Below are positions 8,215-56,704 of a stretch of DNA of 64,000 bases, in pieces. The notes under the pieces were generated by a model, which did not search any database, was not told the DNA's origin, and saw nothing but the letters and a program-made list of their open reading frames with translations. The stretch is from Halococcoides cellulosivorans (GTDB lineage Archaea > Halobacteriota > Halobacteria > Halobacteriales > Haloarculaceae). The DNA is taken from contig NZ_CP028858.1 in assembly GCF_003058365.1 (NCBI RefSeq), positions 2,220,836-2,284,835 of the forward strand. Reading direction: 5' to 3'. Within the stretch, counting starts at the first letter, position 1. Each line of letters opens with the position of its first letter. The translations under genes were made by a program, and so were the position numbers.

Positions 8215-8256
8215 ATAGGTCAAGAAATATGAGTCTGGAACAGTTGTGTGTTAACG

Positions 8257-35347: not shown

Positions 35348-38300
35348 ATGTCGGAATCGATCGTACAGTTAGGGAGAGCGATGGATCCGGATTTTGATCG
35401 ACCAGGGGTGGCGGGGGCATTGGCAGTCGTAATGACATTAGCCGCGATAACAGGGGGTATCGCGGTGTCGAGCGTCACTGGAGCGGACGCAGCCGTTCAG
35501 CCCGATCTGGCGGTCGACACGACCGTCTCGGGCCAGGAAGTGACGATTTCGGTCGACTACACCAACGCCTCCGCGATCAACATCAAGGAGGTGCCAAACA
35601 CCTGGACCGTCGTCGATAGTTCGGACGGTCTGGCCGAGAAATCACCAGAGGGAGAGAGTTATCGCAACGTCGGCTGGGTCTGGATGGACAGCCAGACCGG
35701 CACGGAGACCGTGACCCTCGAAGTCCCCGAGGGTGAGAGCGGGCCCTTCTCGCTCCCGGTCGAGGCCGAGAATATCGACGGCGGAACGGTCTCGGAGACG
35801 GCCGAGTTCTCACTCGACGAGAGCACCGACACCGAGACGACCGACAGTGCGGGCGACACCGCCCCGGGCCTGACGGTCCAGGGCGATGCCGTCGCCCCCG
35901 GTGAGACCGCGACGGTCTCGGTGACCGCCGAGAACGTCGGTCTCCTCTCGCTCGACGGCATCCCGACCGACTGGACGATCGAGAGCTACGACACGGCCGG
36001 CGGGTCACCGATCGAGGAGACCACCGACGGCACCGACGAGATCGCCTGGGCCTGGGATCAGAACCAGGACAGCGTCACCGTCGTGGTCGCACTGGCCGTC
36101 CCCGCGGACGCCGCGATCGGTGAGACGGCACTCACCGCCGAGGCCGCCAACGACGCCGAGGGGACAACCACCGCACCGATCGGCATCGACGTGATCGAAG
36201 AGGAGGAAACGGTACACACCCACCAATCCGGTGAAACGACCGACACACCCGATGTCACCGACGAGCCGACGGATTCCACTGGTGACGATCCGACCGAGAC
36301 GGTGACGCCGACCGACGAACCGGCCGTCAGTCTCGAAGGAGCAGTCGTCGCGCCCGGCGAGACCGCGACCGTCACGGTGACTGCCGAGAACGTCGGCTTG
36401 CTCTCGCTCGACGGCATCCCGACCGACTGGACGATCGAGAGCTACGACGCGGCCGGTGGGTCGCCGGTCGTCGAGACCACCGACGGCACCGACAAGATCG
36501 CGTGGACGTGGGATCAGAACCAGGACAGCGTCGCCATCGACGTGGCCCTGTCCGTCCCTGCGGACGCCGCGATCGGTGAGACGGCACTCACCGCCGAAGC
36601 CGCCAACGACAACGAGCTGATCGCCAGCCACACCGCGTCTGTGCTGGTGAGCGAGGGCGTCCCGACCGACGAGACGCCGACCGACGAACCGACGACCGAG
36701 GAGACACCTGGCGACGAACCGACGACCGAAGTCGGTGACGAACCGACCGAGCAGACCCCGAGTGACAACCCGACGACCGTCTCACCCGGGAGCCCCGCCC
36801 TCAGCGTCGGGAGCGGAGTCGTCGCCCCCGGTGAGAGCGTCACTGTCTCGCTCGTCGCGGAGAACGTCGGCCTCCTCTCGCTCGACGGCATCCCGACCGA
36901 CTGGACGATCGAGAGCTACGACGCGGCCGGGGGATCACCGATCGTCGAGCCCACCGACGGCACCGACAAGATCGCCTGGACCTGGGATCAGAATCAGGAT
37001 CGGGTCGAGATCGGCGTGACCCTGTCCGTGCCCGCGGACGCCGCGCTCGGTGAGACGGCACTCACCGTCGAGGCCGCCAACGACAACGACATCTCGGTCA
37101 CCGACACCGCCACCGTCTCGGTGACCGACGAGACGTCGACCGACGAACCGACGCCCGTCCCCGGGAGTCCGTCCGTCAACGTCGAGGGAGGCGCAGTCAT
37201 GCCCGGTGAGACCACGACGGTCTCGCTGACTGCCGAGAACGTCGGCCTCCTCTCGCTCGACGGCATCCCGACCGACTGGACGATCGAATCCATCGACGAC
37301 GCCGGCGGGTCACCGATCGACGAGACCACCGACGGCACCGACAAGATCGCCTGGACCTGGGACCAGAACCAGGACAGCGTCGCCATCGACGTGACCCTGT
37401 CCGTGCCCGCGGACGCCGCGCTCGGTGAGACGGCACTCACCGCCGAAGCCGCCAACGGGGCTGATCTCTCGGCCACCGACACCGCCACCGTCTCCGTGAC
37501 CGACGAGGAGGTCCCGACCCAGGAGACGCCCGAAGAGGCCGTCCTGAGCATCGAACCCGTCGAGACCGAGGACGGGTACGCGGCCTCGCTCGTGCTCTCC
37601 GAGGCTCCGAACGGCATCTCTGGCTACGAGGTGACGCTGGCCAGCGACAACACGGACGTCCTGCAAGTCGCCGGCAGTGACCGAGTGAGTCCGGTCACCT
37701 GGGGCGACGCGTTCGACACGATCAACACGGTGAATCGGGCCGACGACGGCTCCGCGATCACGCTGAAAGCCACCAATTCGGAGGACATGCACGAACCGGT
37801 GACGGACATCGAACTCGCGACGATCGACCTCGACGCGATGGGTGAGGGGTACGCTGAGCTCGACGTCGGCGTCCACGATATCCAGGACGGTGGAGGATAC
37901 ACCATCCCGGTGACCACCGAGTCCGAAGTCCTCGCCGTCGGTGGCGCGCCCGAGACGACCGACCCGGGCACCGACGAGCCGAGCGAGACGACGGTCACGC
38001 CCGTCGATAATCCGGGCTCCAGTGAGGACCCGGCCGTCAGCGTCACTGGCGGCACGGTCCGCCCCGGTGAGACCGTCACGGTCGACATCACCGCCGACAA
38101 CGTCGACGCGCTCTGGTTGGGAGGCATCCCGAACAGCTGGACGGTCGAGTCCGTCGACGACCAGGGCACGACGCCGATCGTCCAATCCTACGACCACGGT
38201 CAACAGATCGCCTGGAACTGGGGCAGCACGGTGACCGACGTCTCGGTCTCCGCGACGGTCGCCATTCCGGAGAACGCGACGATTGGCGACACGACACTCA

Positions 38301-40345
38301 ACGCGACAGGGAATCTGGCGGGCCTCCCCCAAACGAGTGACACGGCGACCGTCTCGGTCGTCGACGAGGTCCCGACCGACGAGCCGACCACCGACGAGAC
38401 GCCCGAGCCGGCCGTCCTGAGCATCGAACCCGTCGAGACCGAGGACGGCTACGCGGCCTCGCTCGTGCTCTCCGAGGCCCCGAACGGCGTCTCTGGCTAC
38501 GAGGTGACGCTGGCCAGTGACAACGCGAGTGTCCTGCAGGTCGCCGGCGGCGATCGAGTGAGCCCGGTCACCTGGAGCGACGCGTTCGACACGATCAACA
38601 CGTACTCGCGGGCCGACGACGGCTCCGCGATCACGATAGAAGCCACGGATCCGAACGAGATGGTTCAGGACGGGGCCGAGGACATCGAACTCGCGACGAT
38701 CGAGATGGACGCGATGAGTGAGGGGTACGCCGGACTCTCCGTCGGCGTCCACGAACTCCAGGACGACACTGGCGCCGACATCCCGGTGACCACCGCGTCC
38801 GAAGTCGTCGCCGTCGGTGGCGCGCCCGAGACGACCGACCCGGGCACCGACGAGCCGAGCGAGACGACGATCACGCCCGTCGACGAGCCCGGCTCCGGTG
38901 ACGATCCGACCGTCGACGCCACCGATGGCACGGTCCGCCCCGGAGAGACCGTCACGGTCGACATCACCGCCGACAACGTCGACTCGCTCTGGTTGGGAGA
39001 CATCCCGAACAACTGGACGATCGAGTCCGTCGACGATCAGGGCACGACGCCGATCATCCAAACGTTCGACAGCGGCCAGGAGATCGCCTGGAACTGGGGC
39101 GGCACGGTGTCCGACGTCTCGATCTCCGTGACGTTCGCCATTCCGGAGAACGCGTCGATCGGTGATACCACGCTCACCCTCGGAGCGAACGGTCTGGACT
39201 CCGTCGACACGTCGACCATCTCGGTCGTCGAGGAGCTCCCGACTGACGAACCGACTACCGAGCCCGGCACGGACGAACCCGGCACGGACGAGCCTGGCAC
39301 GGACGAGCCTGGTACGGACGAGCCCGGTACGGACGAGCCTGGTACGGACGAACCTGGCACCGACGAGCCTGGTACGGACGAGCCTGGTACGGACGAGCCT
39401 GGCACGGACGAACCCGGTACGGACGAACCTGGCACCGACGAGCCTGGTACGGACGAGCCTGGTACGGACGAGCCTGGTACGGACGAGCCTGGTACGGACG
39501 AGCCTGGTACGGACGAGCCTGGTACGGACGAGCCTGGTACGGACGAACCCGGTACGGACGAGCCTGGTACGGACGAACCCGGTACGGACGAACCCGGTAC
39601 GGACGAACCCGGTACGGACGAGCCTGGCACCGACGAGCCGAGTGACGCACTCTCGGTCTCTGTCGCGAACGCGAGCGTCGCACCCGGTGAGAACGCGACC
39701 CTGACTCTGACGGCCGAGAACGCCGGCATGCTCTCGCTCGACGACATCCCGGCCAACTGGACGATCGAATCCGTCGAGGCTGGCGGAGCCACGTCGATCG
39801 ACGAGACAGTCAACGACAGCCAGGAACTCGCCTGGACCTGGGATCAGAACCAGGACAGCCTCAGCCTGAACGTCACGCTCGGCGTGCCGGCGAACGCCTC
39901 GACCGGAGCGGTCACGCTCACGGCCACCGCGTGGTCGAGTGACGACAGCAGCGTGACCGACACCGCCACCGTGTCGGTGACCGAGTCGGCCTCGGAGACG
40001 CCGACCGAAACGGATACCCAGGACGACGAGGGTGACAGCGGCGGGAATGGCGGCGGCGTCGGCGGCGGTGGAAAGAAAGAGATCCCGACGGACGACGACT
40101 CGGGGTCCGACGACGGTGACACCGAACCGATCGACCCGATCGACCCGGACACCGAGTCTGACGACGACTCCGGTGGTGCGGCGGAACCCTCGACCGACGA
40201 CGCGGCCTCGACCGCGACGACGACCGGTGAGGCAGTCGACCCGCAGACGGAGTCCCAGACCGACGCCGGTGGGCCTGGCTTCGGGCCGCTGGTCGCGCTG
40301 ATCGCACTCGTCGCCGCCACGCTCGTCGCCGTGCGTCGAGACTAA
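35348..40345 (+). CDS. Scaffoldin-like surface protein: two cohesin-like domains, eight repeat modules, PGF-CTERM-like anchor
   Basis: 1665 residues. The N-terminus (VAGALAVVMTLAAITGG) is a Sec-type signal without a twin-arginine motif. Eight copies of a roughly 105-residue module follow (residues 50-156, 175-283, 326-435, 484-592, 609-717, 896-1004, 1188-1293, 1434-1544). Their core is VAPGETATVTVTAENVGLLS then IPTDWTIESYDAAGG and IAWTWDQNQDS. Two 135-residue domains (732-866, 1023-1158) resemble type I cohesins. They show GISGYEVTLASDNTDVLQV, a tail IELATIDLDAMGEGYAELDV and a final VLAVGG. Thr/Asp/Glu/Pro linkers separate the domains, with 25 PGTDE repeats at 1306-1430. The C-terminus GPGFGPLVALIALVAATL then RRD resembles a PGF-CTERM archaeosortase signal. 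The likely role is a cell-surface scaffold docking dockerin enzymes. The cohesin call rests on pattern and on the six dockerins in the window. Confidence 0.85.
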   Translation: MSESIVQLGRAMDPDFDRPGVAGALAVVMTLAAITGGIAVSSVTGADAAVQPDLAVDTTVSGQEVTISVDYTNASAINIKEVPNTWTVVDSSDGLAEKSPEGESYRNVGWVWMDSQTGTETVTLEVPEGESGPFSLPVEAENIDGGTVSETAEFSLDESTDTETTDSAGDTAPGLTVQGDAVAPGETATVSVTAENVGLLSLDGIPTDWTIESYDTAGGSPIEETTDGTDEIAWAWDQNQDSVTVVVALAVPADAAIGETALTAEAANDAEGTTTAPIGIDVIEEEETVHTHQSGETTDTPDVTDEPTDSTGDDPTETVTPTDEPAVSLEGAVVAPGETATVTVTAENVGLLSLDGIPTDWTIESYDAAGGSPVVETTDGTDKIAWTWDQNQDSVAIDVALSVPADAAIGETALTAEAANDNELIASHTASVLVSEGVPTDETPTDEPTTEETPGDEPTTEVGDEPTEQTPSDNPTTVSPGSPALSVGSGVVAPGESVTVSLVAENVGLLSLDGIPTDWTIESYDAAGGSPIVEPTDGTDKIAWTWDQNQDRVEIGVTLSVPADAALGETALTVEAANDNDISVTDTATVSVTDETSTDEPTPVPGSPSVNVEGGAVMPGETTTVSLTAENVGLLSLDGIPTDWTIESIDDAGGSPIDETTDGTDKIAWTWDQNQDSVAIDVTLSVPADAALGETALTAEAANGADLSATDTATVSVTDEEVPTQETPEEAVLSIEPVETEDGYAASLVLSEAPNGISGYEVTLASDNTDVLQVAGSDRVSPVTWGDAFDTINTVNRADDGSAITLKATNSEDMHEPVTDIELATIDLDAMGEGYAELDVGVHDIQDGGGYTIPVTTESEVLAVGGAPETTDPGTDEPSETTVTPVDNPGSSEDPAVSVTGGTVRPGETVTVDITADNVDALWLGGIPNSWTVESVDDQGTTPIVQSYDHGQQIAWNWGSTVTDVSVSATVAIPENATIGDTTLNATGNLAGLPQTSDTATVSVVDEVPTDEPTTDETPEPAVLSIEPVETEDGYAASLVLSEAPNGVSGYEVTLASDNASVLQVAGGDRVSPVTWSDAFDTINTYSRADDGSAITIEATDPNEMVQDGAEDIELATIEMDAMSEGYAGLSVGVHELQDDTGADIPVTTASEVVAVGGAPETTDPGTDEPSETTITPVDEPGSGDDPTVDATDGTVRPGETVTVDITADNVDSLWLGDIPNNWTIESVDDQGTTPIIQTFDSGQEIAWNWGGTVSDVSISVTFAIPENASIGDTTLTLGANGLDSVDTSTISVVEELPTDEPTTEPGTDEPGTDEPGTDEPGTDEPGTDEPGTDEPGTDEPGTDEPGTDEPGTDEPGTDEPGTDEPGTDEPGTDEPGTDEPGTDEPGTDEPGTDEPGTDEPGTDEPGTDEPGTDEPGTDEPGTDEPGTDEPSDALSVSVANASVAPGENATLTLTAENAGMLSLDDIPANWTIESVEAGGATSIDETVNDSQELAWTWDQNQDSLSLNVTLGVPANASTGAVTLTATAWSSDDSSVTDTATVSVTESASETPTETDTQDDEGDSGGNGGGVGGGGKKEIPTDDDSGSDDGDTEPIDPIDPDTESDDDSGGAAEPSTDDAASTATTTGEAVDPQTESQTDAGGPGFGPLVALIALVAATLVAVRRD
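37541..37945 (+). other. Cohesin-like domain 1
   Basis: Residues 732-866 of the surface protein. It starts VLSIEPVETEDGYAASLVLS and shows the cohesin-like strand pair GISGYEVTLASDN then VLQV. A middle charged strand (DDGSAITLKATNSEDM) follows, and then ELATIDLDAMGEGYAELDV before the final strand. It is about 85 percent identical by eye to domain 2, which argues for recent duplication. Confidence 0.7.
38414..38821 (+). other. Cohesin-like domain 2
   Basis: Residues 1023-1158. It is nearly the same as domain 1 up to VTLASDN, and differs mainly in the loops (DASV, SDAFDTINTYSRADD, DPNEMVQDGAED). It sits between repeat modules 6 and 7, so each cohesin is flanked by the spacer modules. Confidence 0.7.
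39263..39637 (+). repeat. 25 tandem 15-base repeats encoding PGTDE
   Basis: The unit is 15 bases with consensus CCTGGTACGGACGAG, varying at third codon positions only (CCC/CCT, GGC/GGT, ACG/ACC, GAA/GAG), so the encoded PGTDE is invariant in all 25 copies. It forms an extended Pro/Thr/Asp/Glu spacer of 125 residues between repeat modules 7 and 8, likely O-glycosylated or simply rigid. The number of copies probably varies between strains by slippage. Confidence 0.97.
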
Positions 40346-40384: not shown

Positions 40385-41287
40385 ATGGAGAGAACAGCGA
40401 CCCACGGCGAGGGGGTGGCCCGCGTCGCGACGCTCGCGGTCGTCGTGATCCTCGTGGCCAGTCTGGCCGGGCCGGCGCTGGCCGACCCGACCCAGGAGTC
40501 GTTTCCGAGAGCCTCGGGGAGCGATCACGTCGTCGCGCCGGGCGAGACGGTCACCATAGAACTGGCGGTCCAGGACGTCAATAGCATCAAATTCGAGCCA
40601 GTGCCGACCGACTGGGAGATCGTCTCCAGCACCAGTGACGGGACCGACGGGCAAGTCGAGCAGTTGGACTCCGGCGACCGGGTCGTCGGATGGGTGTTCC
40701 CCGAGGCCGTGGCGAATCGAACCGCGACGGTCACACTGCGCGTCCCCGAGGACGCCGCCACCGACCAGTATCGGTTCAACGTGAGCGCCGAACACGTCGA
40801 GAACGGCATGGCGCACGCCTCGACGATCGTCAACGTGAACCCGGACGCCGATTCACTCGTCATCCCCGAACCGAACGCCCACGGCCCATACACTGTCGTC
40901 GAGGGCGAGTCCGCCCCACTCGACCCGGTCTGGAGTGAAGACCCCGACGGCACGGTCGCGGGCGTCACATGGCTCCAGTTGGGTGGCAACGGCGAAATCG
41001 ACAACCAACACTTCTTCCCGCCGAACGTCATCGCCACGAACGAAACGGCGACCGTCGAGTTGCAGATCCTCGACAACGACGGCCTGCTGGCGACCCAATC
41101 CGCACAGATCCTCGTTCTCCAGTCGGAGTTCGCCCCCGAGACCCCGACGCCCGAGGAGTCGACGCCACGCGACCCGCCCCGGACGCCACTCGACGACGAG
41201 AGCGGGGCCTCACCAGTGATCGGCGGGATCGGAACGCTGGTGTTGGTCTTCTTGCTGGTCGTGCTCGTCTACCACCGCCGCGAGTGA
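40385..41287 (+). CDS. Membrane-anchored companion of the scaffoldin, sharing its repeat module
   Basis: 300 residues from ATG 40385. A Sec-type signal (VATLAVVVILVASLAGPALA) ends near residue 33. Residues about 48-155 repeat the scaffoldin module (VVAPGETVTIELAVQDVNSI, PVPTDWEIVSS, VVGWVFPEAVANRTATVTLRVPEDA). A PKD/Ig-like domain follows (VVEGESAPLDPVWSEDPDGTV). The C-terminus has a membrane segment (VIGGIGTLVLVFLLVVLVYH) with a short cytoplasmic RRE tail. It lies 39 bases after the scaffoldin, and probably shares its transcript. It may be an anchoring or assembly partner; no catalytic motif is present. Confidence 0.85.
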   Translation: MERTATHGEGVARVATLAVVVILVASLAGPALADPTQESFPRASGSDHVVAPGETVTIELAVQDVNSIKFEPVPTDWEIVSSTSDGTDGQVEQLDSGDRVVGWVFPEAVANRTATVTLRVPEDAATDQYRFNVSAEHVENGMAHASTIVNVNPDADSLVIPEPNAHGPYTVVEGESAPLDPVWSEDPDGTVAGVTWLQLGGNGEIDNQHFFPPNVIATNETATVELQILDNDGLLATQSAQILVLQSEFAPETPTPEESTPRDPPRTPLDDESGASPVIGGIGTLVLVFLLVVLVYHRRE

Positions 41288-43923: not shown

Positions 43924-44997
43924 GTGTCTCACGAATCCGAACAGACCGGGGGACTCGATCCCCCCGCCCCCGACGAGACGAGCGATGCCCAGCAGATCGG
44001 TGAACTGGTCGAGCGGTTACGGGAGTTCCGCGACCCACACCAGTCCGATCCAGCCAGCGACGGCGTCCTGATCGACCAACTCGAAGAGGTCGAACAGCGA
44101 CTGCTGGCCTTCGGGCGCGCGCTCGGTGGCGACCCCAACGACGTGACTGACCTCCCCTTCACCGAGGAGGCGGCCCTCCACAGCATGCCCGAGCCACTGT
44201 ACGTCCGTCACGACCGGGAGATGCTCAACCAGATCACGAGCTGGCTGCTTCAAGACCAGCACATCGGGTTGATCAGTCCCTACGGCACGGGCAAGACCGC
44301 GTTCCGCGAGATCGTCCGTCGTGATCTGGGCAATCACGACGACTTCGTCGTCGCCTTCCTGGACAATCCCGAACAGACCACGCCCCGAAAGCTGTACGCG
44401 ACCGCGCTCGAAGCCGCCTACGACGCGGGCTATCGCATCGACACCAGTGAGTTCCGGCAGGTCCGAGACGGCATTCCGTGGGTGACCGAGGACACCAAAG
44501 CCGCCGTCAGCGCCATCGTCGACATGATCCGCGACGACGGCGGGACACTCCTGCTCGTCATCGACGAGATCGAAGTCCTGCCCGAACAGCTCATGTCGAC
44601 GATCCAGGTCGCCGGCGACACCGGCGTTCGCCTGTTCTTGCTCGGGACGCCCGAGGGCAAGCGCCGCCTGGCGGAGTTGCGCGGCACGCTCGATTCACGA
44701 TTGCGCTACTACGAGGGGATCGATCCGTTCGACCCGAAACACGTCTCGGAGTACATCGCGCGCTCGATCGCGTACTTCCGCGGCGAGGAGTTCGACGGCA
44801 CGCGCCCGGGGCTGTTCACCGAGGACGCGATCAAAGACATCCAACGGCGGACCGACGGCGTCCCCCGCGAGGTCCGCATCGAGTGTCGCGAACTGTTCAC
44901 GCGCGCGGCGTTCGTCTGGTATCGCACCGGCCAGGACATCGACCGCATCAAGATCACACCCGAACTCCGGCATCGGCGGTTCGGGATGGGCCGTTAG
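43924..44997 (+). CDS. AAA+ ATPase of unknown role
   Basis: 357 residues from GTG 43924 (VSHESEQTGG). The first 75 residues are acidic and probably disordered. Walker A is SPYGTGKTAF (about 121-130), Walker B is LLLVIDEIEVL (about 200-210), and the sensor-like LFLLGTPEGKRRLAELRGTLDSRLRYYEGIDPF follows. The C-terminus contains a winged-helix-like stretch (LFTEDAIKDIQRRTDGVPREVRIECRELF). It resembles Orc1/ExeA-type ATPases, but the replication motif set is incomplete; the function is open. It overlaps the GH5 stop by 2 bases, tail to tail. Confidence 0.75.
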   Translation: MSHESEQTGGLDPPAPDETSDAQQIGELVERLREFRDPHQSDPASDGVLIDQLEEVEQRLLAFGRALGGDPNDVTDLPFTEEAALHSMPEPLYVRHDREMLNQITSWLLQDQHIGLISPYGTGKTAFREIVRRDLGNHDDFVVAFLDNPEQTTPRKLYATALEAAYDAGYRIDTSEFRQVRDGIPWVTEDTKAAVSAIVDMIRDDGGTLLLVIDEIEVLPEQLMSTIQVAGDTGVRLFLLGTPEGKRRLAELRGTLDSRLRYYEGIDPFDPKHVSEYIARSIAYFRGEEFDGTRPGLFTEDAIKDIQRRTDGVPREVRIECRELFTRAAFVWYRTGQDIDRIKITPELRHRRFGMGR

Positions 44998-46409
44998 ATC
45001 CGCTCGAACAGCGCCAGCACGTCCTGGGAGTCGACGTCGCCGTCGCCATCGAAATCGAACATCGTGGGCGTGTTCTGGACCGCCGGCGCGTCGGTGTTCT
45101 GGAACAGCGTGTTCACGTCGGGGAAATCGAGGTCGCCGTTCCCACTCACGTCCTCGAACACCCCGTCGCCGTCGGGATCGGTCGGGCGAGCGTCCCCGAG
45201 AATCGGGGGTTCCGGGGGCGAATCGCCCCCACTCGCGGCGTCCGCGAGCCACTGGCGGATGAAGCCGCCGTGCTCCTCGGGGCCGTCTTTGAGGGCCCAG
45301 GGCTGACTACTGTCGCCGGTCTCCTCGAAGAAGGTCGGCGCCCACGAGTGATCAAAACACCAGCCGAACCAGCCCACGTTGTCGTACGAATCGACCCACT
45401 CGCGGAACGGCTCACCCCACCCCGAGGTCGTCCCGTAGCCCTCGTCGTCCTCGGGGAGGCTCGGGTCCCAGCCGAACTCCGTGATGGCGACGGGCACGTC
45501 CTCGGCGGGCGCGCCGTACACCGAGTCGAACTCCGAGGGCTGGCCGTTCGGCGGGTAGATATGGCCGGCGTAGACGAGATTGTCGCCCTCGAAGGGGTAC
45601 TCCGGGGCGAAGTCCGTCCGGGAGGTCCAGGACGGCGAGCCGACAATAATCGGCGTCTCGGGCGCGTGCGCGCGGATCTCGTCGACCCAGGGCTGGGCGG
45701 TCTTCTGCCAGAGTGTCCACGACTCCTGGCGGTTCGACACGTCGCTACTGCCGTACGATGACCACGCCACCGGCAGCGTCGGCTCGTTGAACAGTTCGTA
45801 CAGCACGTGGTCGTCGTCAGCGAACGCGGGCGCGACGGCGCTCCAGAAGTCCATCAGCAACTCGTCGGTCGGCACGCTCGCGTCGAAGCCCAGATCGTCG
45901 ATCGTCTCGGCCCACCCGTCCGCGACCATCCCCTCGGCGTTCGCCCGTGTCTCGACGTACGGCCGGATCAGATGGAAGTCGATCATGGCGTACACGCCCC
46001 GATCGGCCAGAACGTCGACCGCCGGGCGCAGCAACTCCTCGACGACGTACGCTGGGCCCTGCTCGATGAAGGGCCACTCCGTGACGGGCAGTCGGATCGC
46101 GTTCGGCTGCCACTGTTCGCCGTCGGTCGCCCGCTCCAGGACCTCCGTCGTCGAGAACGGGTACCAGTCGTTGGCGATGAAATCGAGCCCCGCGGTCGCG
46201 AAGCCTCGCAACTCCACGTTCTCGCCGGCCGGATCTCTGATCCAGCGGCCCTCGGTGTGCAACGGTGGCGTCGACCCGCCGACCGCGCCCGCCGTCCCGA
46301 CGAGGCCGCCCGTCGTGACGCCGGCGACGCCCGCCCCCGTCGCCCGGAGGAAGGTTCGTCGATCGATCGTGCGCTCGATACCGTCGATGGCGCTGCGGTC
46401 CCCTCGCAT
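44994..46409 (-). CDS. GH5-type glycoside hydrolase (cellulase-like) with C-terminal dockerin
   Basis: 471 residues from ATG 46407-46409. A Tat signal (DRRTFLRATGAGVAG, R17-R18) leads to the catalytic domain (about 45-390). It has the GH5 pattern: proposed acid/base Glu209 in YELFNEP and nucleophile Glu311 in AITEFGWDP. The C-terminal 65 residues are a dockerin with two calcium loops (DVSGNGDLDFPDV and DFDGDGDVDSQDV). GH5 enzymes cleave beta-1,4-linked glucans and mannans by a retaining mechanism; the exact substrate is not shown. There is no separate carbohydrate-binding module. Its promoter includes AATCAAACT and a TATA box on the minus strand. Converges with the AAA gene and is followed upstream by GH43 in the same orientation. 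Confidence 0.9.
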   Translation of the reverse strand: MRGDRSAIDGIERTIDRRTFLRATGAGVAGVTTGGLVGTAGAVGGSTPPLHTEGRWIRDPAGENVELRGFATAGLDFIANDWYPFSTTEVLERATDGEQWQPNAIRLPVTEWPFIEQGPAYVVEELLRPAVDVLADRGVYAMIDFHLIRPYVETRANAEGMVADGWAETIDDLGFDASVPTDELLMDFWSAVAPAFADDDHVLYELFNEPTLPVAWSSYGSSDVSNRQESWTLWQKTAQPWVDEIRAHAPETPIIVGSPSWTSRTDFAPEYPFEGDNLVYAGHIYPPNGQPSEFDSVYGAPAEDVPVAITEFGWDPSLPEDDEGYGTTSGWGEPFREWVDSYDNVGWFGWCFDHSWAPTFFEETGDSSQPWALKDGPEEHGGFIRQWLADAASGGDSPPEPPILGDARPTDPDGDGVFEDVSGNGDLDFPDVNTLFQNTDAPAVQNTPTMFDFDGDGDVDSQDVLALFERI

Positions 46410-46492: not shown

Positions 46493-47755
46493 TCAGACCG
46501 ACTCGAACAGCGCGAGCACGTCCTGGGCGTCGACCGTCCCGTCGCCCGAGAAGTCGTACGCGTCGGCGTGGTCCTGGACGGACGCCGACTCGATGTTCTG
46601 AAACAGCCGATTCACGTCCGGGAAGTTCAGCGTCTCGTCGCCCGAGAGGTCCTCGTATCGGCCGTCGCCGTCCAGGTCTCGCGGGACGGTCCCGTCGATC
46701 GGATCGGGGCCCGTCGGCGCGGAATCGACCGTCGGACGCGGATGCTCCCGACAGGGCTGGCCGTCACAGCCGACGACCGGCCAGTCCGCGTCGTCGAACC
46801 GAATCCGGTCGACCATCAGCCGTCGCCCCGGATCGTCTCCGAGCGCTTCGATGTGATACAGCATCCACCAGTCGCCCGCCGCGTCCCGAATGGCCGTGTT
46901 GTGACCCGTCCCGACGAACTCCTCGGTCGGGGAGAGGACGGCCTGGCCGGCGTGGTGGTCGTGAATCGTTCGGAGATCGCGGCCGTCACGCGTGCGATAC
47001 GGGCCGAACAACGATTCGGACCGGCCGACCTCGATTTCGTAGGTACTCTCCACCCCGTCACAGCAGTGCCCCGTCGAGCAAAACAGGTAGAAGTAGTCGT
47101 TCTCACGGACGAGCATCGCGCCCTCACGGTTGTCGCCCGCCAACTGCCAGGCGGTCCCGGGGACGTAGTCCATCCCGTCGGGCGTCAACTCGACGCCCCA
47201 GATGCCGAAGAAACTCCCCCAGATCAGGTACGGCGTGCCATCCAGGACGACCAACTCAGAGTCGATGCAGTTGGTCTGCGAGAGGTCCTCGTTCCGGAAG
47301 ACCGGGCCGTGGTCGGTAAAGGGGCCCTCGGGGTGGTCGGCGGTCGCGACTCCGATCCCCGGGTTGTCCTGACTGCCCCACGTCGAGTGCGAATAATAGA
47401 GATACACGCGATCGTCGAAACGGTTGACGTCGGGAGCCCAGAAACCCGCCTCGGGGTCGCCGTGCCAGTCGGGGTCCCAGTCGACGGCCTTGCCCTGTGG
47501 CTCCCAGGTCACCAGGTCGTCCGACCGGGCGAACGCCCGCCCGGTGCCGTAGACGTAGTACGTGCCCGACCACTCGATCACCGAGACGTCACCGAACCCC
47601 GGCGGGCCCGTCGGATTGTGGAACTGCCCGCCGGTCTCGTCGGCCACCCCCGATCGGGTGGCCGTCCCGATTCCCCCGAGTGCCGCCGTCGCGCCCCCTA
47701 TTCGGGCCAGCATCGACCGACGACTGAGTCCCCCCGCGCCCGGATCCCCGTGCAT
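46493..47755 (-). CDS. GH43-type arabinanase/xylosidase-like enzyme with C-terminal dockerin
   Basis: 420 residues from ATG 47753-47755. A Tat signal (LSRRSMLARIGGATAALGGIG, R12-R13) precedes a five-bladed propeller. Proposed GH43 catalytic residues are Asp56 (GFGDVSVIEW), Asp165 (CIDSELVV) and Glu211 (NREGAML). Other marks are WAPDVNRFDDRVYLYY and GTGHNTAIRDAAGDWWMLYH. GH43 enzymes invert beta-xyloside or alpha-arabinoside bonds. The last 70 residues are a dockerin (DLSGDETLNFPDV, where one loop position is changed, and DFSGDGTVDAQDV). The gene runs with GH5 and GH10 on the minus strand, separated by 83 and 81 bases. Confidence 0.88.
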   Translation of the reverse strand: MHGDPGAGGLSRRSMLARIGGATAALGGIGTATRSGVADETGGQFHNPTGPPGFGDVSVIEWSGTYYVYGTGRAFARSDDLVTWEPQGKAVDWDPDWHGDPEAGFWAPDVNRFDDRVYLYYSHSTWGSQDNPGIGVATADHPEGPFTDHGPVFRNEDLSQTNCIDSELVVLDGTPYLIWGSFFGIWGVELTPDGMDYVPGTAWQLAGDNREGAMLVRENDYFYLFCSTGHCCDGVESTYEIEVGRSESLFGPYRTRDGRDLRTIHDHHAGQAVLSPTEEFVGTGHNTAIRDAAGDWWMLYHIEALGDDPGRRLMVDRIRFDDADWPVVGCDGQPCREHPRPTVDSAPTGPDPIDGTVPRDLDGDGRYEDLSGDETLNFPDVNRLFQNIESASVQDHADAYDFSGDGTVDAQDVLALFESV

Positions 47756-47836: not shown

Positions 47837-49549
47837 TCAGACCGACTCGAACAGCGCCAGGACGTCCTGGGAGTCGAGGTCGCCGTCGCCGTCGAAGTCG
47901 TAGTACTGGGTGTTGTCCTGGGCCACCGTCGAATCGGTGTTCTGGAACAGCGTGTTCACGTCGGGGAAGTTCAGTTCACCGTCGCCCGAGAGGTCCTCGT
48001 ACAGGCCGTCGTCGTCGGGGTCGGTCGCGCCCTCGGGCCAGTCGGGGCCCTCGGGCGTCGGATCGACCGACCCTTCGGCGTCGACGGTGACCGTGACCTG
48101 CGTCGTCCCGCTCGAATCGGTGACCTCGACGCTCGTCGTACTCGACTCGCCGTCCGCCGTGGCGGTGATCTCGTGACTTCCCAGGTAGGCACTCGTCACG
48201 AACACGCCCGACCCGTCGGCGGTGCCGGACTCGCTGGTCCACCACTCGTCGAAGACGAGGTTCTTCCAGACGTCGAGCGCGGGCTTTTCGGACCAGTCGT
48301 CCTGGAAGAACGGCGCCTCGTTCTCCCAGTGGCGACCGTCCCAGAACCCCCAGATGATGAAGTCGGTCACGTTGGGGTGACCGTACGCCGTCTTCATCCA
48401 GGTGTACATCAGATCGGCGCGTTCGTCCTGGCCGTTCCAGTCGCTGCCGTTGTACATGTCGAACTCGGTGATCTTCAGGTCGGCGTCGTAGTCGGTGAAA
48501 TTCGAGAGGCGCTCGTTGATCTCGCTGTAAGTCAGCCGACCGTCCGGATCACTGTTGTTCTCGCCGGGGTTAGAACTCCGCGCCCCCACGTGGCTCTGGA
48601 ACCCGATCATGTCGATATCGATGCCGTCGTCGATCAGCGACTCGATCTGGCTCTGATATCGGCCCTCGGTGTACGGCCACTGGCCTTCGAGGGTGTTGAA
48701 GTCGTTCACCCCGATATCGATGTCCTCACCGGCGACGTTCTGGGCCGTCTCGTACCAGTCGGTGAGTTGATCTGACGTCCACGGGAGCACGTCGCCGGTC
48801 CAGGGCTCTTCGGAGTCGATCTGGTCGCCGTAGATCGCCTTCTGCATCGCGAAGTGATGCATCGCCTCGTTTACAATTTCCCACTCGTCGACCTGGCCCT
48901 CGTAGTGGGTGATGATCTCTTCGATGTGCTCGGTCGAGCGCTGTTTGATCGTCTCGGCGTCGCCGTTGTCGATCGCCGTCTGGACGTCGTTGGGGATGGC
49001 TCCGACGCCGGTCCGGCCCCAGACACAGACGTGGCCACGGACGTACAGGTCGTGGTCGACCAGCCACTCCGTACACCGGTCGGCACGGTCGGTGTTGTCC
49101 TCCCAGAACTTCCACTTGTGGCCGTTCTCCAGCACCGCGGTGTTGAACAGTTCGGGGATGACCTGCCGGTACTGGTCCCCGTCGCTGTACTGGTCCCAGA
49201 CACGGGCGTTGACCGCCGTCCCGAACCCGTAGTCGTGCTCGGTCATCTCGACCGAGACGTCGGCGTTCGGGATCGGTCGCCCCTCGGGGTCCTCGACGAC
49301 GACTTCGAGGTCGCTGGTCTGGTTCTCGGCAATCCGCTGGTCGGCCAGTTGTTCCCAGTCGGGGTCACGCCGGTCCTTCCAGTGAGTCTCGGCGCTCGCC
49401 GGCGTTGCCGACGCGCCCAGCAGCGTCGCCCCACCCGCGACGCCCGCCGATTTGACGAACGATCGCCGGTCGACGTCGAGGTCTGTCAGTCGCTCGGTGC
49501 CCTCCGCCGCGCCGCCCGCGTCCGCGTGAGTATCGGGTGTCTCAGTCAT
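47837..49549 (-). CDS. GH10 endo-beta-1,4-xylanase with C-terminal dockerin
   Basis: 570 residues from ATG 49547-49549. Tat signal DRRSFVKSAGVAGGATLLGA (R28-R29). The N-terminal region after the signal (about 78-105) includes an Ig-like strand (LEVVVEDPEGRPIPNADVSVEM). Then comes the GH10 barrel with acid/base Glu228 (DEWEIVNEAMHH), nucleophile Glu362 (KITEFDMYNG) and FAMQKAIYG and FQSHVGARSS loops. A short Ig-like linker leads to the dockerin (DLSGDGELNFPDV, DFDGDGDLDSQDV). GH10 enzymes cleave xylan by retention. A very long leader with a hairpin lies before the start, described separately. Confidence 0.93.
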   Translation of the reverse strand: MTETPDTHADAGGAAEGTERLTDLDVDRRSFVKSAGVAGGATLLGASATPASAETHWKDRRDPDWEQLADQRIAENQTSDLEVVVEDPEGRPIPNADVSVEMTEHDYGFGTAVNARVWDQYSDGDQYRQVIPELFNTAVLENGHKWKFWEDNTDRADRCTEWLVDHDLYVRGHVCVWGRTGVGAIPNDVQTAIDNGDAETIKQRSTEHIEEIITHYEGQVDEWEIVNEAMHHFAMQKAIYGDQIDSEEPWTGDVLPWTSDQLTDWYETAQNVAGEDIDIGVNDFNTLEGQWPYTEGRYQSQIESLIDDGIDIDMIGFQSHVGARSSNPGENNSDPDGRLTYSEINERLSNFTDYDADLKITEFDMYNGSDWNGQDERADLMYTWMKTAYGHPNVTDFIIWGFWDGRHWENEAPFFQDDWSEKPALDVWKNLVFDEWWTSESGTADGSGVFVTSAYLGSHEITATADGESSTTSVEVTDSSGTTQVTVTVDAEGSVDPTPEGPDWPEGATDPDDDGLYEDLSGDGELNFPDVNTLFQNTDSTVAQDNTQYYDFDGDGDLDSQDVLALFESV

Positions 49550-49853
49550 GAATGGAAAGTTGGGCGCTCGATTTCGAGCGCCCGTGTGATCGGACCGAAA
49601 GCGAGGGGAACCGCCAGTCCGTGTTCGTCCGCCGATGCAGTGGGGGACGGCCCTGGTCCGCACGATCGCGGACGGTGAGTCGGACCGGCCCAAGATGGTG
49701 TGGGTCGACGATCGTCTCGTGGACCCACCCCCGGACCGATCGTCGGGTGCGGCCGATCTCCCCGGTATTAATTTCGGCACGGCGTGAGTAAATATTTGTC
49801 GGTAGTTTGATTCGACATGTGATGTCGGAGACTCGAATCACCACGGAGCGACA
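49550..49853 (-). promoter_or_regulatory. GH10 leader and promoter region (304 bases without a gene)
   Basis: A perfect hairpin (GGGCGCTCG arms, ATTT loop) sits at 49562-49583, 12 bases before the ATG. Two TATA candidates (minus strand) lie at 49767-49775 and 49790-49798, implying a leader of about 180-220 bases. Upstream of the second lies AATCAAACT (49804-49812) and, adjoining it, the 6-3-6 palindrome CGACATGTGATGTCG (49813-49827). No protein-coding frame is convincing here. Confidence 0.6.
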
Positions 49854-50915
49854 TCACTCGTCGCGGTGTTCGAGTGTGACCGACCGGGCGACGTAGTCCT
49901 CGACGCTCGCGCCGGGACTCGCGATCGTGACCTCCCTGTCGCCGGTATCGAGCACGAGCACGCGTTCGAGGGAGAACCGTTTCTCGCCCGGTTCGATCAT
50001 GCCCTGGGACACGTCGACGACATCGCCAGTCAGCGTCTCCGTCCGCCCGGTGTCCGTCGAGGTCCCCTCGACGGTCGCCGTGAGCGGGGTGCCCTCTCGC
50101 CGGTGGAGTGTCGCGTGGACCAGCGCCCACGGGAACACCTCGAAGGTGTGAGGGAGTTCGACGGCATCGGGAACGGCGATTTCGGTGCCGAGACGCCACT
50201 CGTTGCCCAACAGCGACCCGATGACCCGGGGGGCCATGTTCCGCTGTTCGAGATAGATCGCCGGGCTGTACGATCCCGCGGATGCGCCGGCGGCGTTCGG
50301 GATGACATAGAGCGCCTGGAAGTAATCGACACCCAGGCCCGCCTCGTCCCACGTCGCGAGGTCCTCCCAGACCCGGACGACGCTGGCGATCTCACCGAGC
50401 GGGCGGCCCTCGATGTCCGCGCCGTCTTCGGTGACGACCAAGACGAGGACGCCGCGGTCGACCGCCTCGCGGAGTTCGGGCGCGAGGTCTTCCAGCAAGT
50501 CCCGCCGCGCGACGAGGATGAGCCACTCGGTCGCACTGGTGATCATCGACCGGCAGCGATCGACGACCGCCGGGCGGTGGTTGAGCACGTCGACGTTCCC
50601 GATCGGATCGCTGGGTTTGGCGTACTGGCTCTCGATCCGGTCGAGGATCTTGTCGTGGCTTTTCGACATCACGGTCTCGACGTGGTCCGGTGGCGACGCC
50701 TGGATCACCGTCGGCTGGAGGTGATCGTTCACGTCGACCAGACCGCGCCGCTCCAGTCGCTCGACGATGCGATAGACGTGTCTCGACGTGACCTCTGCTC
50801 GATCGGCTACGTCAGACACGCGCGCCTCGTTGAGATCCAAAACGGCGACGTAGACGTCGATCTCCGCCTCGGAGAACCCCCACCGTTTCAGCTCCCGCCG
50901 GAGCTCGTCCGCCAT
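49854..50915 (-). CDS. TrmB-family sugar-responsive transcription regulator
   Basis: 353 residues from ATG 50913-50915. The N-terminal winged helix (LKRWGFSEAEIDVYVAVLDLNEARVSDVADRAEV then HVYRIVERLERRGLVDV) is typical of TrmB. The rest (about 100-353) resembles the TrmB sugar-binding domain. It includes ATEWLILVARRDLLEDLAPELREAVDRGV and a beta-rich C-terminal part. TrmB-type proteins repress or activate sugar and polysaccharide genes. The gene sits between GH10 and the PL14-like lyase and is transcribed in the same direction. The most likely targets are the surrounding dockerin enzymes. Confidence 0.9.
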   Translation of the reverse strand: MADELRRELKRWGFSEAEIDVYVAVLDLNEARVSDVADRAEVTSRHVYRIVERLERRGLVDVNDHLQPTVIQASPPDHVETVMSKSHDKILDRIESQYAKPSDPIGNVDVLNHRPAVVDRCRSMITSATEWLILVARRDLLEDLAPELREAVDRGVLVLVVTEDGADIEGRPLGEIASVVRVWEDLATWDEAGLGVDYFQALYVIPNAAGASAGSYSPAIYLEQRNMAPRVIGSLLGNEWRLGTEIAVPDAVELPHTFEVFPWALVHATLHRREGTPLTATVEGTSTDTGRTETLTGDVVDVSQGMIEPGEKRFSLERVLVLDTGDREVTIASPGASVEDYVARSVTLEHRDE

Positions 50916-50981: not shown

Positions 50982-52145
50982 TCAGATCGACTCGAACAGC
51001 GCGAGCACGTCCTGGAGGTCGACCACGCCGTCACCCGAGACGTCGTACGCCTCGACGTGGTCCTGGACCGCCGCCGACTCGGTGTGCTGGAACAGGCGGT
51101 TCACGTCGGGGAACGCAACTTTGCCGTCGCCGTCGATGTCCTCGTGGAGGCCATCGCCGTCGAGATCGCGCGGCGTCTCGCCCTCGATCGGGTCGAGATC
51201 CGGGGTCGGGTCGGTCGTCGTCTCCGGAGTCGTGGTCGACCGATCGGGCCCGTTCCAGATCGGCGCCTCGGAGATCACGAACTCGTCGTAGTAGATGTGT
51301 TCGTCCCGGGAGTGCGCCCACTTCGGCGTGTTCCCGCCGCCGAAAAACGAGGAGAAATAGAATCGGTTGATCCCCCGGTCGGGGACGTCCCAGAAGCGGA
51401 GATCGCGCCGCTCGAAGACCTTCTCGCCGTCGAACCAGCCTTCGAGGACGCCGTCGTGTTCGCCGGGCGTGTTCATCACGACGTGGTGTTCGATCTCGTG
51501 GGTGCGATCACGCTCGAAGTAGACCTGCTCACCGCCGTCGTCCCAGTGCATGTTCTCGCCGTACTCGCCGGGTTGATCGGGGTGATAGACGTAGAACATC
51601 GCGAGCCCACGGTCCGGGTCCTCGTCGATCGGGTCGCGCCACATCATCCGGGCAGACCAGCCGTTCGTCCCGTCGGGGTCGTCACCGCCCGTGACCGCAT
51701 ACACGCCGTCGGCCGACCCGATCAGACCGGGGAGTTTCCCGCCCGCGTTCGAGAACTCGAAGCCCGCGCCGAACCGGACGCGGTAGCCCAGATACAGTTC
51801 GTCGTAGTGACGGCCGAGCGGGACCATCATGTCGACGCCGCCATTGCCGTTCCCGGCCTCGCCCGCGGGATACTGGGTGTCGAGCATCGTCGCGCCGTCC
51901 TCGCGGACGACGTCGACGTAGGTGGTATCGACACTCCAGGGGTTCAGGCCGTCCCACTGGGACTCGTCGACCGTCCAGTCGCCCACCGGACGGTCCTCGA
52001 AATCACGGTGGAGCACGACGGGATCGTCGCTCCGGACCGACGCCGGAAGGCCCGCACCGAGGACGCCGACCCCGAGCGCGGCCAGCACCGCTCGCCGGGT
52101 GGGCGTCGCGTGTCCGTGCAGTCGTGGTCTGGTCGGTCGGGCCAT
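50982..52145 (-). CDS. PL14-like polysaccharide lyase with C-terminal dockerin
   Basis: 387 residues from ATG 52143-52145. The Tat signal is TPTRRAVLAALGVGVLGAGLPA (R17-R18). Residues 45-300 form a beta-jelly-roll with the PL14-type motif GGKLPGL (135-141) and the strand WSARMMWRD. Such lyases cleave uronate-containing polymers (alginate, glucuronan) by beta-elimination; assignment from this motif is moderate. A Thr/Pro linker (TTTPETTTDPTPDLDP) leads to a dockerin (DIDGDGKVAFPDV and DVSGDGVVDLQDV). It lies upstream of the TrmB gene, separated by 66 bases. Confidence 0.82.
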   Translation of the reverse strand: MARPTRPRLHGHATPTRRAVLAALGVGVLGAGLPASVRSDDPVVLHRDFEDRPVGDWTVDESQWDGLNPWSVDTTYVDVVREDGATMLDTQYPAGEAGNGNGGVDMMVPLGRHYDELYLGYRVRFGAGFEFSNAGGKLPGLIGSADGVYAVTGGDDPDGTNGWSARMMWRDPIDEDPDRGLAMFYVYHPDQPGEYGENMHWDDGGEQVYFERDRTHEIEHHVVMNTPGEHDGVLEGWFDGEKVFERRDLRFWDVPDRGINRFYFSSFFGGGNTPKWAHSRDEHIYYDEFVISEAPIWNGPDRSTTTPETTTDPTPDLDPIEGETPRDLDGDGLHEDIDGDGKVAFPDVNRLFQHTESAAVQDHVEAYDVSGDGVVDLQDVLALFESI

Positions 52146-52548
52146 GAGTTGGTTTCGACCGCTCACTGTATGGTTAGATCGTGGAGGATCATAATCGTGT
52201 CCCCGTCCTCGGACCGGGTCGTGACGCTACGCGGCCAACTCCGAACGGCGCGCACGTCGGGGTCGTCGGCCCCGAGGCGCGCGTCGACGCCGTGGTGGGC
52301 CCCCCCACTCGGCCGGTGCCCTCCCCACTCGACCGTACAGACGGGCGTGTTTGAATACTCCTGAACCGGTCCCGCATCCGACAGACCGGGTGTTCAGGAC
52401 CCCCGACGCGGTGGCCGGGGCGCCACCGAAGACCGGCGTGCCAACCCGACCCGACGCACGGATCGCGTCCGGACGAGGTCAGGATCGCACGACGCCGTTC
52501 CGACCGTCGGAACGAACTGTTTTCGGTGTCGGCCGACTGTGTCGACGT
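52146..52548. other. 403-base gene-free stretch between lyase and Orc1-like gene
   Basis: It holds two divergent promoter regions. An imperfect inverted repeat (arms CTGAACCGGTC at 52361-52371 and GACCGGGTGTTCAG at 52384-52397, with a 3-base bulge) lies near a TATA-like TTTGAATAC. I looked for a repeated origin-type binding motif and saw none. The open frame upstream of 52549 is Pro/Arg/Thr-rich and looks non-coding. Confidence 0.4.
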
Positions 52549-55389: not shown

Positions 55390-56562
55390 TCAGACCGACT
55401 CGAACAGCGCGAGCACGTCCTGGGAGTCGACCACGCCGTCACCCGAGAAGTCGTACGCGTCGACGTGGTCCTGGACCGCCGGCGAGTCGGTGTGCTGGAA
55501 CAACGCGTTCACGTCGGGGAAGTCGAGTTTGTCGTTGCCCGAGACGTCCTCGTACAGGCCGTCACCGTCGAGGTCCTGCGGGACGCGACCGTCGATCGGG
55601 TCGACCTCGGGGGTCGGCGTCGTGGTCGGCTCCTCGGTCGTGGTCGTCGTCGGCGTCGACTCGACGGCCTCGAACTGGCGGACGTAGTCGACGGTCATCC
55701 GCTGTGGGAACTCCGTGGAGGCGTCGGGGTAGCCCGGCCAACTGCCGCCGACGGCGACGTTGAGCAGGAAGAAAAACTCGTGATCGAACACCCACTGGTT
55801 GCCTGCATCCTCGACCTCCGAACGGGTGACGTCGTGGAAGTGGGTGCCGTCGACGTACCAGTCGATCCGGTCTGGCTGCCAGACGATCGAGTAGGTGTGC
55901 GCCGACTGCGAGAAGTCCGTCCCGGCGTCGGTGTGGGAGGTGTTGATCCCGTCGGCGCCCGAGTAGCCGGGGCCGTGGACGGTCGCGTGGATCGTGTCTG
56001 TATTGTGACCGAGAAACTCCGCGACGTCGATCTCGCCGTCGTCGGGCCAGCCGTAGCCGCCGAGCATCCAGATCGCCGGCCAGAGCCCCTGGCCCTCGGG
56101 AAAGGTCGCGCGGACGTCCAGGCGCCCGTACTGCATCGTGTGTGCGCCCTGAGTCTTCAGACGACCGGAGGTGTACTCGTTGACCCCGTTCGGGGCGGTC
56201 TCCTCGCGGGCCTCGATGACGAGTGATCCGTCCTCGACGAAGGCGTTGTCACCCGCCGTGTAGTACTGTTCTTCCTCGTTGCCCCACGGACAGGTGCTCT
56301 TGTGGCGTCGGTTTTCACCACAGCCACCGCCGGTCTCGTGTGTCCAGGCGTCGTCGATCGATCCGTCGAACTCGTCGCGCCAGACCATCTGCCAGGACTG
56401 ATCGCCGGGGGCGTCGATCGCGGGCGCATCGTCCGGGACCGCCCGTGCGGCACCCATGGCGGCGAGGCCGCCGACCACGCCCGCCCCGACCGTCGAGAGG
56501 AAGCTCCGGCGAGTTCGGTCACGGGTCGATACTGTGCGTCGATCGGTGTTGTCGTCGGTCAT
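55390..56562 (-). CDS. GH16 laminarinase-like enzyme with C-terminal dockerin
   Basis: 390 residues from ATG 56560-56562. A Tat signal (RTRRSFLSTVGAGVVGGLAA, R18-R19) leads to a GH16 jelly-roll (about 55-295). The retaining catalytic signature is DGEIDVAEFLGH with Glu177 nucleophile, Asp179 and Glu182 acid/base. Other marks are WPAIWMLGG and WQPDRIDWYVDGT. Such enzymes cleave beta-1,3- or mixed-linked glucans. A Thr-rich linker (TPTTTTTEEPTTTPTPE) precedes the dockerin (DVSGNDKLDFPDV and DFSGDGVVDSQDV). The first calcium loop has Asn-Asp in place of Gly-Asp-Gly. It is separated from the kinase gene by 41 bases. Confidence 0.92.
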   Translation of the reverse strand: MTDDNTDRRTVSTRDRTRRSFLSTVGAGVVGGLAAMGAARAVPDDAPAIDAPGDQSWQMVWRDEFDGSIDDAWTHETGGGCGENRRHKSTCPWGNEEEQYYTAGDNAFVEDGSLVIEAREETAPNGVNEYTSGRLKTQGAHTMQYGRLDVRATFPEGQGLWPAIWMLGGYGWPDDGEIDVAEFLGHNTDTIHATVHGPGYSGADGINTSHTDAGTDFSQSAHTYSIVWQPDRIDWYVDGTHFHDVTRSEVEDAGNQWVFDHEFFFLLNVAVGGSWPGYPDASTEFPQRMTVDYVRQFEAVESTPTTTTTEEPTTTPTPEVDPIDGRVPQDLDGDGLYEDVSGNDKLDFPDVNALFQHTDSPAVQDHVDAYDFSGDGVVDSQDVLALFESV

Positions 56563-56577
56563 GGTGGGATAGGGTCG

Positions 56578-56595
56578 CGGTCCGCTCGCGGACCG
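56578..56595 (-). promoter_or_regulatory. 8-2-8 inverted repeat at the GH16 start
   Basis: CGGTCCGCTCGCGGACCG, perfect eight-base arms around TC, 15 bases before the ATG. A TATA candidate (GAGAGAATAGAC, 56605-56616) places the repeat over or just after the predicted transcription start. It could be an operator or a leader hairpin like that of GH10. Confidence 0.5.
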
Positions 56596-56704
56596 GACAC
56601 AGGTGTCTATTCTCTCAACGGGACGCACAATGAAAAGATCTTCCTGAACGGCCACTCGACGACCGATCGAGTGAGCGACCACTCGTTCAGCACCCCGTCC
56701 CCAC

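Follow-up and report, generated by a model that had tools for sequence, protein, structure and literature searches.

A predicted cell-surface anchoring scaffoldin and a cellulosome-like gene repertoire in the haloarchaeon Halococcoides cellulosivorans

Cellulosomes are known from anaerobic bacteria. In the clostridial and ruminococcal systems (CipA, OlpB and SdbA; ScaA-ScaE), cohesins are carried by scaffoldins and dockerins by the C-termini of enzymes, an anchoring scaffoldin attaches the assembly to the cell surface, a scaffoldin bears a carbohydrate-binding module (CBM) and a dockerin unlike those of the enzymes, and the recognition segments are species-specific. We describe here a haloarchaeal system that, as read from sequence, resembles them in these respects. 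It differs from them in being archaeal, aerobic and salt-saturated, in having cohesins that score below the Pfam threshold, and in having a PGF-CTERM anchor rather than an SLH or sortase one. It also has Tat-type signals on most of its dockerin proteins and Ig-like spacers from another family, and in its relatives the multi-cohesin scaffoldin is fused to GH5.

Among archaea, binding has been reported for cohesin-dockerin pairs (PMC9012536 and references therein). The same paper, a comparison of ANME archaea from 2022, states with reference to earlier work that archaea possessing cohesins or dockerins have no multi-cohesin scaffoldins (PMC9012536). The Archaeoglobus fulgidus cohesin 2xdh and the ANME and Methanosarcina proteins share the archaeal cohesin fold with the proteins described below–2xdh is among the top fold matches–but H. 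cellulosivorans combines multi-cohesin proteins with anchors and polysaccharidases. The polysaccharidase island of Natronoglomus mannanivorans (MCU4972 2716-2735; PMC10963439) has a scaffoldin, an anchor and dockerin enzymes of the same family as ours. The paper describing this island mentions neither cohesin nor scaffoldin; it treats the dockerin as substrate-binding and a putative CBM, and what appear to be the scaffoldin and anchor genes are tabled there as a "GH5/CBM6 endoglucanase, 1,755 aa" and an "S-layer glycoprotein, 258 aa, 2 TMH", respectively (PMC10963439). The scaffoldin system of the bacterium Paenibacillus guangzhouensis resembles ours in having enzymes that bear a cohesin-dockerin pair, but there nearly every dockerin belongs to a protein with a cohesin (PMC11557425), whereas most of those in H. 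cellulosivorans are on cohesin-free enzymes. H. cellulosivorans HArcel1 is a cellulose specialist (PMC10267330), and it and related strains have been described as attaching firmly to cellulose, with cell-associated activity. In the non-subscription literature searched, no archaeal cellulosome is named, and haloarchaea, dockerin and cohesin occur together only in an unrelated review.

The H. cellulosivorans genome is a single contig of 2,723,120 bp, of which the window analysed here is a stretch of 64,000 nucleotides. One gene in this window very probably encodes an anchoring scaffoldin belonging to a cellulosome-like system of haloarchaea; its product would carry dockerin enzymes either directly or via an adaptor. 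The computed basis for this assignment consists of cohesin fold, distant homology, dockerin identity, anchor signal, gene repertoire, co-occurrence, and clustering in relatives; from these we infer the physical binding of cohesins to dockerins, its specificity (direct or two-tier) and surface display. The gene, its parts and the gene that follows it are listed here in window coordinates.

35348-40345, plus strand: putative cell-surface anchoring scaffoldin, 1665 aa (open frame, modules by HMM, PGF-CTERM match)
35501-35821, plus strand: Ig-like spacer module 1, divergent N-terminal type (spacer HMM, E 1.5e-32)
35864-36202, plus strand: Ig-like spacer module 2 (spacer HMM)
36317-36655, plus strand: Ig-like spacer module 3 (spacer HMM)
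36794-37132, plus strand: Ig-like spacer module 4 (spacer HMM)
37166-37507, plus strand: Ig-like spacer module 5 (spacer HMM)
37529-37945, plus strand: predicted cohesin domain 1, about residues 728-866 (sequence and HMM search, AlphaFold, Foldseek)
38027-38368, plus strand: Ig-like spacer module 6 (spacer HMM), the one modelled by AlphaFold (pLDDT 95.8)
38402-38821, plus strand: predicted cohesin domain 2, about residues 1019-1158 (sequence and HMM search)
38903-39235, plus strand: Ig-like spacer module 7 (spacer HMM)
39259-39639, plus strand: 15-bp tandem repeat, 25.4 copies, encoding a (GTDEP)n linker
39650-39985, plus strand: Ig-like spacer module 8 (spacer HMM)
40259-40342, plus strand: PGF-CTERM surface-anchoring signal (TIGR04126)
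40385-41287, plus strand: gene after the scaffoldin, encoding a signal, one spacer-type module (about 40505-40843; spacer HMM, E 5.2e-39) and a C-terminal hydrophobic segment

The 1665-aa open reading frame is free of stop codons and encodes a signal, eight Ig-like spacers of about 112 aa arranged around two cohesins of about 138 residues each, the (GTDEP)n linker and the PGF-CTERM anchor. The original prediction had placed a protein of this length here, with cohesin-like domains at residues 732-866 and 1023-1158, repeated spacer modules flanking them, and a PGF-CTERM-like end, and each of these elements was recovered. The two domains lie where they had been predicted, at about residues 729-866 and 1020-1158, and share 77% identity, and all eight spacers were found by HMM. 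At the C-terminus, the TIGR04126 model scores 38.4 bits (cut-off 24.5), the Pfam PGF-CTERM model scores slightly below its cut-off, and the PGF motif, hydrophobic helix and basic tail that characterise archaeosortase substrates are all present. Its two cohesins and its anchor suggest that the protein is an anchoring scaffoldin and not the main scaffold on which multiple enzymes gather. The product of the gene that follows, which has neither a cohesin nor a dockerin by sequence, is possibly a companion or accessory surface protein. The 15-bp repeat is likely to be a hot spot for strain-to-strain variation in linker length.

That the two domains are cohesins was the part of the prediction that fared unevenly, because neither of them matched PF00963 (Cohesin) in a Pfam search at E <= 10, whereas the expected jelly-roll was found. 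The Pfam search matched no CBM family to either domain. A sequence search with the two domains as queries picked up eight more places in the genome, and a profile search gave 15 in total; these copies, together with the high identity between the two domains, put them far from chance. An iterated HMM search yielded 14 family members in the genome stretches around the matches and 15 genome-wide. The AlphaFold model of domain 1, built from the 14-row alignment (pLDDT 86.6, pTM 0.81), has the nine-stranded jelly-roll of cohesins, and when it was compared to the PDB by Foldseek the matches at ranks 1-34 were all cohesins (best E 5e-7, TM about 0.73). They include cohesins of types I, II and III, those of Clostridium perfringens, and Archaeoglobus 2xdh, and there was no CBM among the 50 matches listed. 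As a control, the model of an adjacent spacer module (pLDDT 95.8) gave mixed, generic Ig-like fold matches with a single cohesin among them, so the cohesin result is not shared by every beta-sandwich. We also considered whether the spacers might themselves be diverged cohesins, and rejected this because they lack profile similarity and have generic Ig-like fold matches.

At the sequence level, the 14-member profile found its best PDB matches in CBM2-type exoglucanase domains, which were weak (E 0.027), and its hhalign comparison to the two cohesins of this genome that Pfam does recognise gave a probability of 20. When the profile was deepened to 55 sequences with relatives from other haloarchaea, the probability in the latter comparison was 85 over the full length, and the top match in an hmmsearch of the PDB was the Ruminococcus flavefaciens ScaC cohesin 5lxv (E 3.1e-6). 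Below it came CipA, ScaA and other scaffoldin cohesins with far weaker E-values, and most of the matches that followed were cohesins too. Homology to known cohesins is thus detectable by profile. Pfam Cohesin was also the commonest family among searches with single members (10 of 55, best E 1.7e-6), and relatives score up to 18.9 bits with it, against a cut-off of 24.1. A position slightly under the Pfam threshold would explain why the family has been overlooked. What identifies the two domains as cohesins is their modelled fold taken together with the profiles of the wider family.

The six genes in the window that had been noted as ending in dockerins were all found to do so.

8248-10206, plus strand: dockerin protein with a right-handed beta-helix (dockerin 10009-10203)
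44994-46409, minus strand: dockerin enzyme, GH5 (dockerin 44997-45188)
46493-47755, minus strand: dockerin enzyme, GH43 (dockerin 46496-46687)
47837-49780, minus strand: dockerin enzyme, GH10 (dockerin 47840-48028)
50982-52166, minus strand: dockerin enzyme, PL14 (dockerin 50985-51176)
55390-57177, minus strand: dockerin enzyme, GH16 (dockerin 55393-55584)

A further gene between these enzymes (49854-50915, minus strand) appears by eye to encode a winged-helix (TrmB-like) regulator, possibly of polysaccharidase genes.

Genome-wide, a haloarchaeal dockerin profile has 71 matches, and a PF00404 search finds 56 places at E <= 0.001, most of them above the cut-off. The domains combine a Pfam match with the two calcium-loop/helix repeats of type I dockerins; among 64 dockerin proteins that we scanned with Pfam, taken from the stretches around matches, a strict calcium-loop pattern is present in repeat 1 of 53 and in repeat 2 of 58. 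Model matches in this set are to GH5 (19), GH10 (5), GH9 (3) and GH43 (2), and CBM3, CBM6, CBM35 and ricin-type lectin domains are found on other proteins of the 64. Dockerins of the enzyme type share a common recognition motif, xFPDVNxLFQ...QDVLALFE. An RRxFL-like Tat motif is present in at least 46 of the 64 proteins, which suggests that many dockerin enzymes are exported in a folded state; the anchors look Sec-type. With proteins of two or three cohesins and 71 dockerin matches, polysaccharidases included, the H. cellulosivorans system can be called cellulosome-like on paper. Canonical haloarchaeal dockerins (for example, 44997-45188) also have an extra acidic loop, similar to DPDGDGLYED, on the N-terminal side of both classical repeats. 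It falls outside the span of the Pfam model and is possibly a third calcium site.

Other proteins with cohesins of this family are encoded elsewhere in the genome, at the genomic coordinates given here.

C1:381575-383884: 770-aa protein with an N-terminal CBM-like domain, three cohesins and a dockerin
C1:1864740-1865735: protein with a signal, one cohesin, a Thr-rich linker and a PGF-type tail
C1:2061183-2063921: 913-aa anchor with one cohesin, five spacer modules from the family seen in the 1665-aa protein, a hydrophobic C-terminus and a basic tail
C1:2063939-2066095: three-cohesin Tat protein adjoining the 913-aa anchor

The CBM-like domain of the 770-aa protein was assigned by eye and has no Pfam match. 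Its dockerin (EYMDVILFIDHL) deviates from the enzyme consensus NFPDVNxLFQ and has a median identity of 43% to the enzyme dockerins, the lowest of the canonical set, as compared to 62% among the enzyme dockerins themselves. In being atypical it resembles the type II dockerins borne by clostridial scaffoldins. The three cohesins of the 770-aa protein and the two of the 1665-aa protein fall into separate, supported subclades of the family tree. The single-cohesin proteins have hydrophobic tails, and the PGF-CTERM model has no match in the 913-aa anchor. In the three-cohesin protein that adjoins this anchor, the C-terminal 45 or so residues (LQPSEVMEAKGDYLIGDISLEDAVTVMRAYFF) resemble an unusual or degenerate dockerin half. 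Four further dockerin proteins carry one or two cohesins, and for the cohesin-like domains within dockerin proteins of 566, 495 and 1298 aa a plain accessory role is possible.

We then compared 394 genomes of Halobacteria. The cohesin family is present in 161 of them, dockerins in 178, and both in 151: dockerins occur in 151 of the 161 genomes with a cohesin domain versus 27 of the 233 without one (odds ratio 115, uncorrected for phylogeny). The number of cohesins is higher in dockerin-rich genomes, two of which are those of Natronoglomus mannanivorans and Natronobiforma cellulositropha. At 24 of 28 sampled loci, a frame that ends in a cohesin and a dockerin lies beside a frame of about 240-515 aa that has a single cohesin and, at its C-terminus, a hydrophobic segment. 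The larger frame is PhoX at L056, the sole locus scanned by Pfam, and has a similar look at the others read; an enzyme-like frame beside a small cohesin membrane frame is what one would expect if an enzyme and the protein that anchors it at the surface were encoded side by side. This pair of a PhoX-like phosphatase and a small cohesin protein is conserved at L048-L075 (for example, L056:483-3372), and may reflect a widespread retention of extracellular phosphatase at the surface.

Scaffoldins and enzymes are clustered in related genera. In Natronoglomus mannanivorans a GH5-(cohesin)8-CBM-like protein (a frame of 1801 aa) lies amid a row of dockerin proteins, and in Natronobiforma cellulositropha another such row surrounds a GH5-(cohesin)5+ protein whose frame ends at the end of the contig. 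Each cluster has a single-cohesin membrane protein near the scaffoldin. A third genome, G266, from another genus, encodes a CBM-like-(cohesin)5-dockerin protein, likewise within a cluster of dockerin proteins and close to its own single-cohesin membrane anchor, and the dockerin on this scaffoldin is similarly deviant (EFTDVIKF). The link between surface scaffold and dockerins, initially proposed from the window, is strengthened by the 71 dockerin matches and other cohesin proteins of the genome, by co-occurrence across the 394 genomes and by these clusters. Further multi-cohesin and dockerin proteins, at G300:C3:124-135 kb, G357:C103, and G347:C6 and C42, may belong to systems with other cargo.

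Dockerins from six species were compared at two recognition segments, using positions borrowed from clostridial dockerins. Identity in the segments is 0.81 within species and 0.38 between them, and in the rest of the dockerin domain it is 0.58 within and 0.45 between. Segments that are uniform within species and different between them are what one would expect if partners recognised each other in a species-specific way. In the tree, cohesins of the family tend to cluster by species.

We propose the following mechanism. After export, the 1665-aa protein would undergo cleavage and anchoring via the archaeosortase route, as its PGF-CTERM suggests, and the rod of Ig-like spacers together with the long acidic linker would place the two cohesins well beyond the envelope. 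There they would bind the calcium-loaded C-terminal dockerins of secreted glycoside hydrolases and lyases directly. By an alternative route, the 770-aa protein would dock via its deviant dockerin, bringing both enzymes and a CBM. The outcome would be many enzymes held on a cell attached to cellulose. That the operon of the 1665-aa protein is separate from the dockerin enzyme genes counts against this explanation, as do the lack of a direct Pfam Cohesin match and the possible accessory role of the cohesin-like domains within dockerin proteins.

Some of the results could be read otherwise. If the two domains were CBMs or generic beta-sandwich spacers, and the dockerins worked alone, for example in substrate binding, then the lack of a direct Pfam Cohesin match, the weak CBM2-type matches of the 14-member profile, the location of several family domains within dockerin enzymes, and the published view of the dockerin as a substrate-binding, putative CBM (PMC10963439) would all make sense. 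This is very improbable, however, given that the top 34 fold matches are exclusively cohesins, that the best PDB match of the deeper profile and most of its later ones are cohesins, and that the domain tracks dockerins across genomes. In many genomes, moreover, it occurs alone on a small membrane-anchored protein beside a dockerin enzyme, where an anchor fits better. It is also unlikely, if slightly less so, that these are true cohesins with a non-cellulosomal role at the surface (S-layer or adhesion architecture, or retention of PhoX-type enzymes) to which polysaccharidase attachment is incidental. Although most of the sampled haloarchaeal loci do pair an enzyme frame bearing a cohesin and a dockerin (PhoX at the locus scanned) with a small membrane-anchored cohesin protein, nearly all dockerins of H. 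cellulosivorans have a single recognition motif, many are on GH5, GH9, GH10, GH43, GH16 or PL14 enzymes, and the scaffoldin clusters were found in polysaccharide degraders. Such a role may be ancestral rather than exclusive.

A weightier alternative, to which we give somewhat less than an even chance, is that the cohesins are genuine and the system has two tiers, in which the sole partner of the 1665-aa protein is the deviant dockerin carried by the CBM-(cohesin)3-dockerin protein, and enzymes never bind to it directly. The type II cohesins of C. thermocellum are the model for binding of a scaffoldin-borne dockerin in this way. The distinct clades of the 1665-aa protein's cohesins and the adaptor's favour a two-tier arrangement without proving it, and it would agree with the departure of EYMDVILFIDHL from the enzyme consensus, its low identity to the other canonical dockerins, and the similar layout and similarly deviant dockerin in the different genus of G266. 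It fits less well with the relatives: no dockerin was seen on the Natronoglomus scaffoldin or on that of Natronobiforma (as far as its truncated frame extends), and the Natronoglomus anchor cohesin clusters with the cohesins of its own scaffoldin, which makes it likely that enzymes in Natronoglomus dock to the anchor directly. The evidence for two tiers is also thin, comparing one scaffoldin dockerin to two anchor cohesins.

If the 1665-aa protein is indeed an anchoring scaffoldin that carries enzymes directly or via an adaptor, then an extreme halophile, an aerobic archaeon whose genome measures 2.7 Mb, has both a dockerin set (71 matches) and the cohesin proteins to hold it. This would explain how cells attached to fibres in brine retain their cellulases, offer salt-stable cohesin-dockerin pairs for engineering, and change how "S-layer glycoproteins" and "endoglucanases" are annotated in a number of haloarchaeal genomes already published. 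Judging by the genes and the modelled fold, enzyme assemblies resembling cellulosomes probably occur in Archaea and have so far escaped notice. We lean slightly towards a broader proposal, that haloarchaea have a full, independently elaborated cellulosome that operates in near-saturated salt. It would comprise anchoring scaffoldins such as the 1665-aa protein, adaptor or primary scaffoldins that carry as many as eight cohesins, and dozens of mostly Tat-exported dockerin enzymes, with PGF-CTERM anchoring and species-specific recognition codes, and would be derived from a simpler cohesin-dockerin pair, widespread in the class, in which a small membrane anchor retains an enzyme at the surface.

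The two cohesins of this genome that are recognised by Pfam (C1:2197182-2198077), which have an odd dockerin between them, were treated as a separate system and kept out of the family. The region around them (C1:2196186-2198359) consists of a 513-aa frame with beta-helix repeats, a cohesin and a deviant dockerin, followed by a 227-aa frame with a single cohesin and a C-terminal membrane segment.
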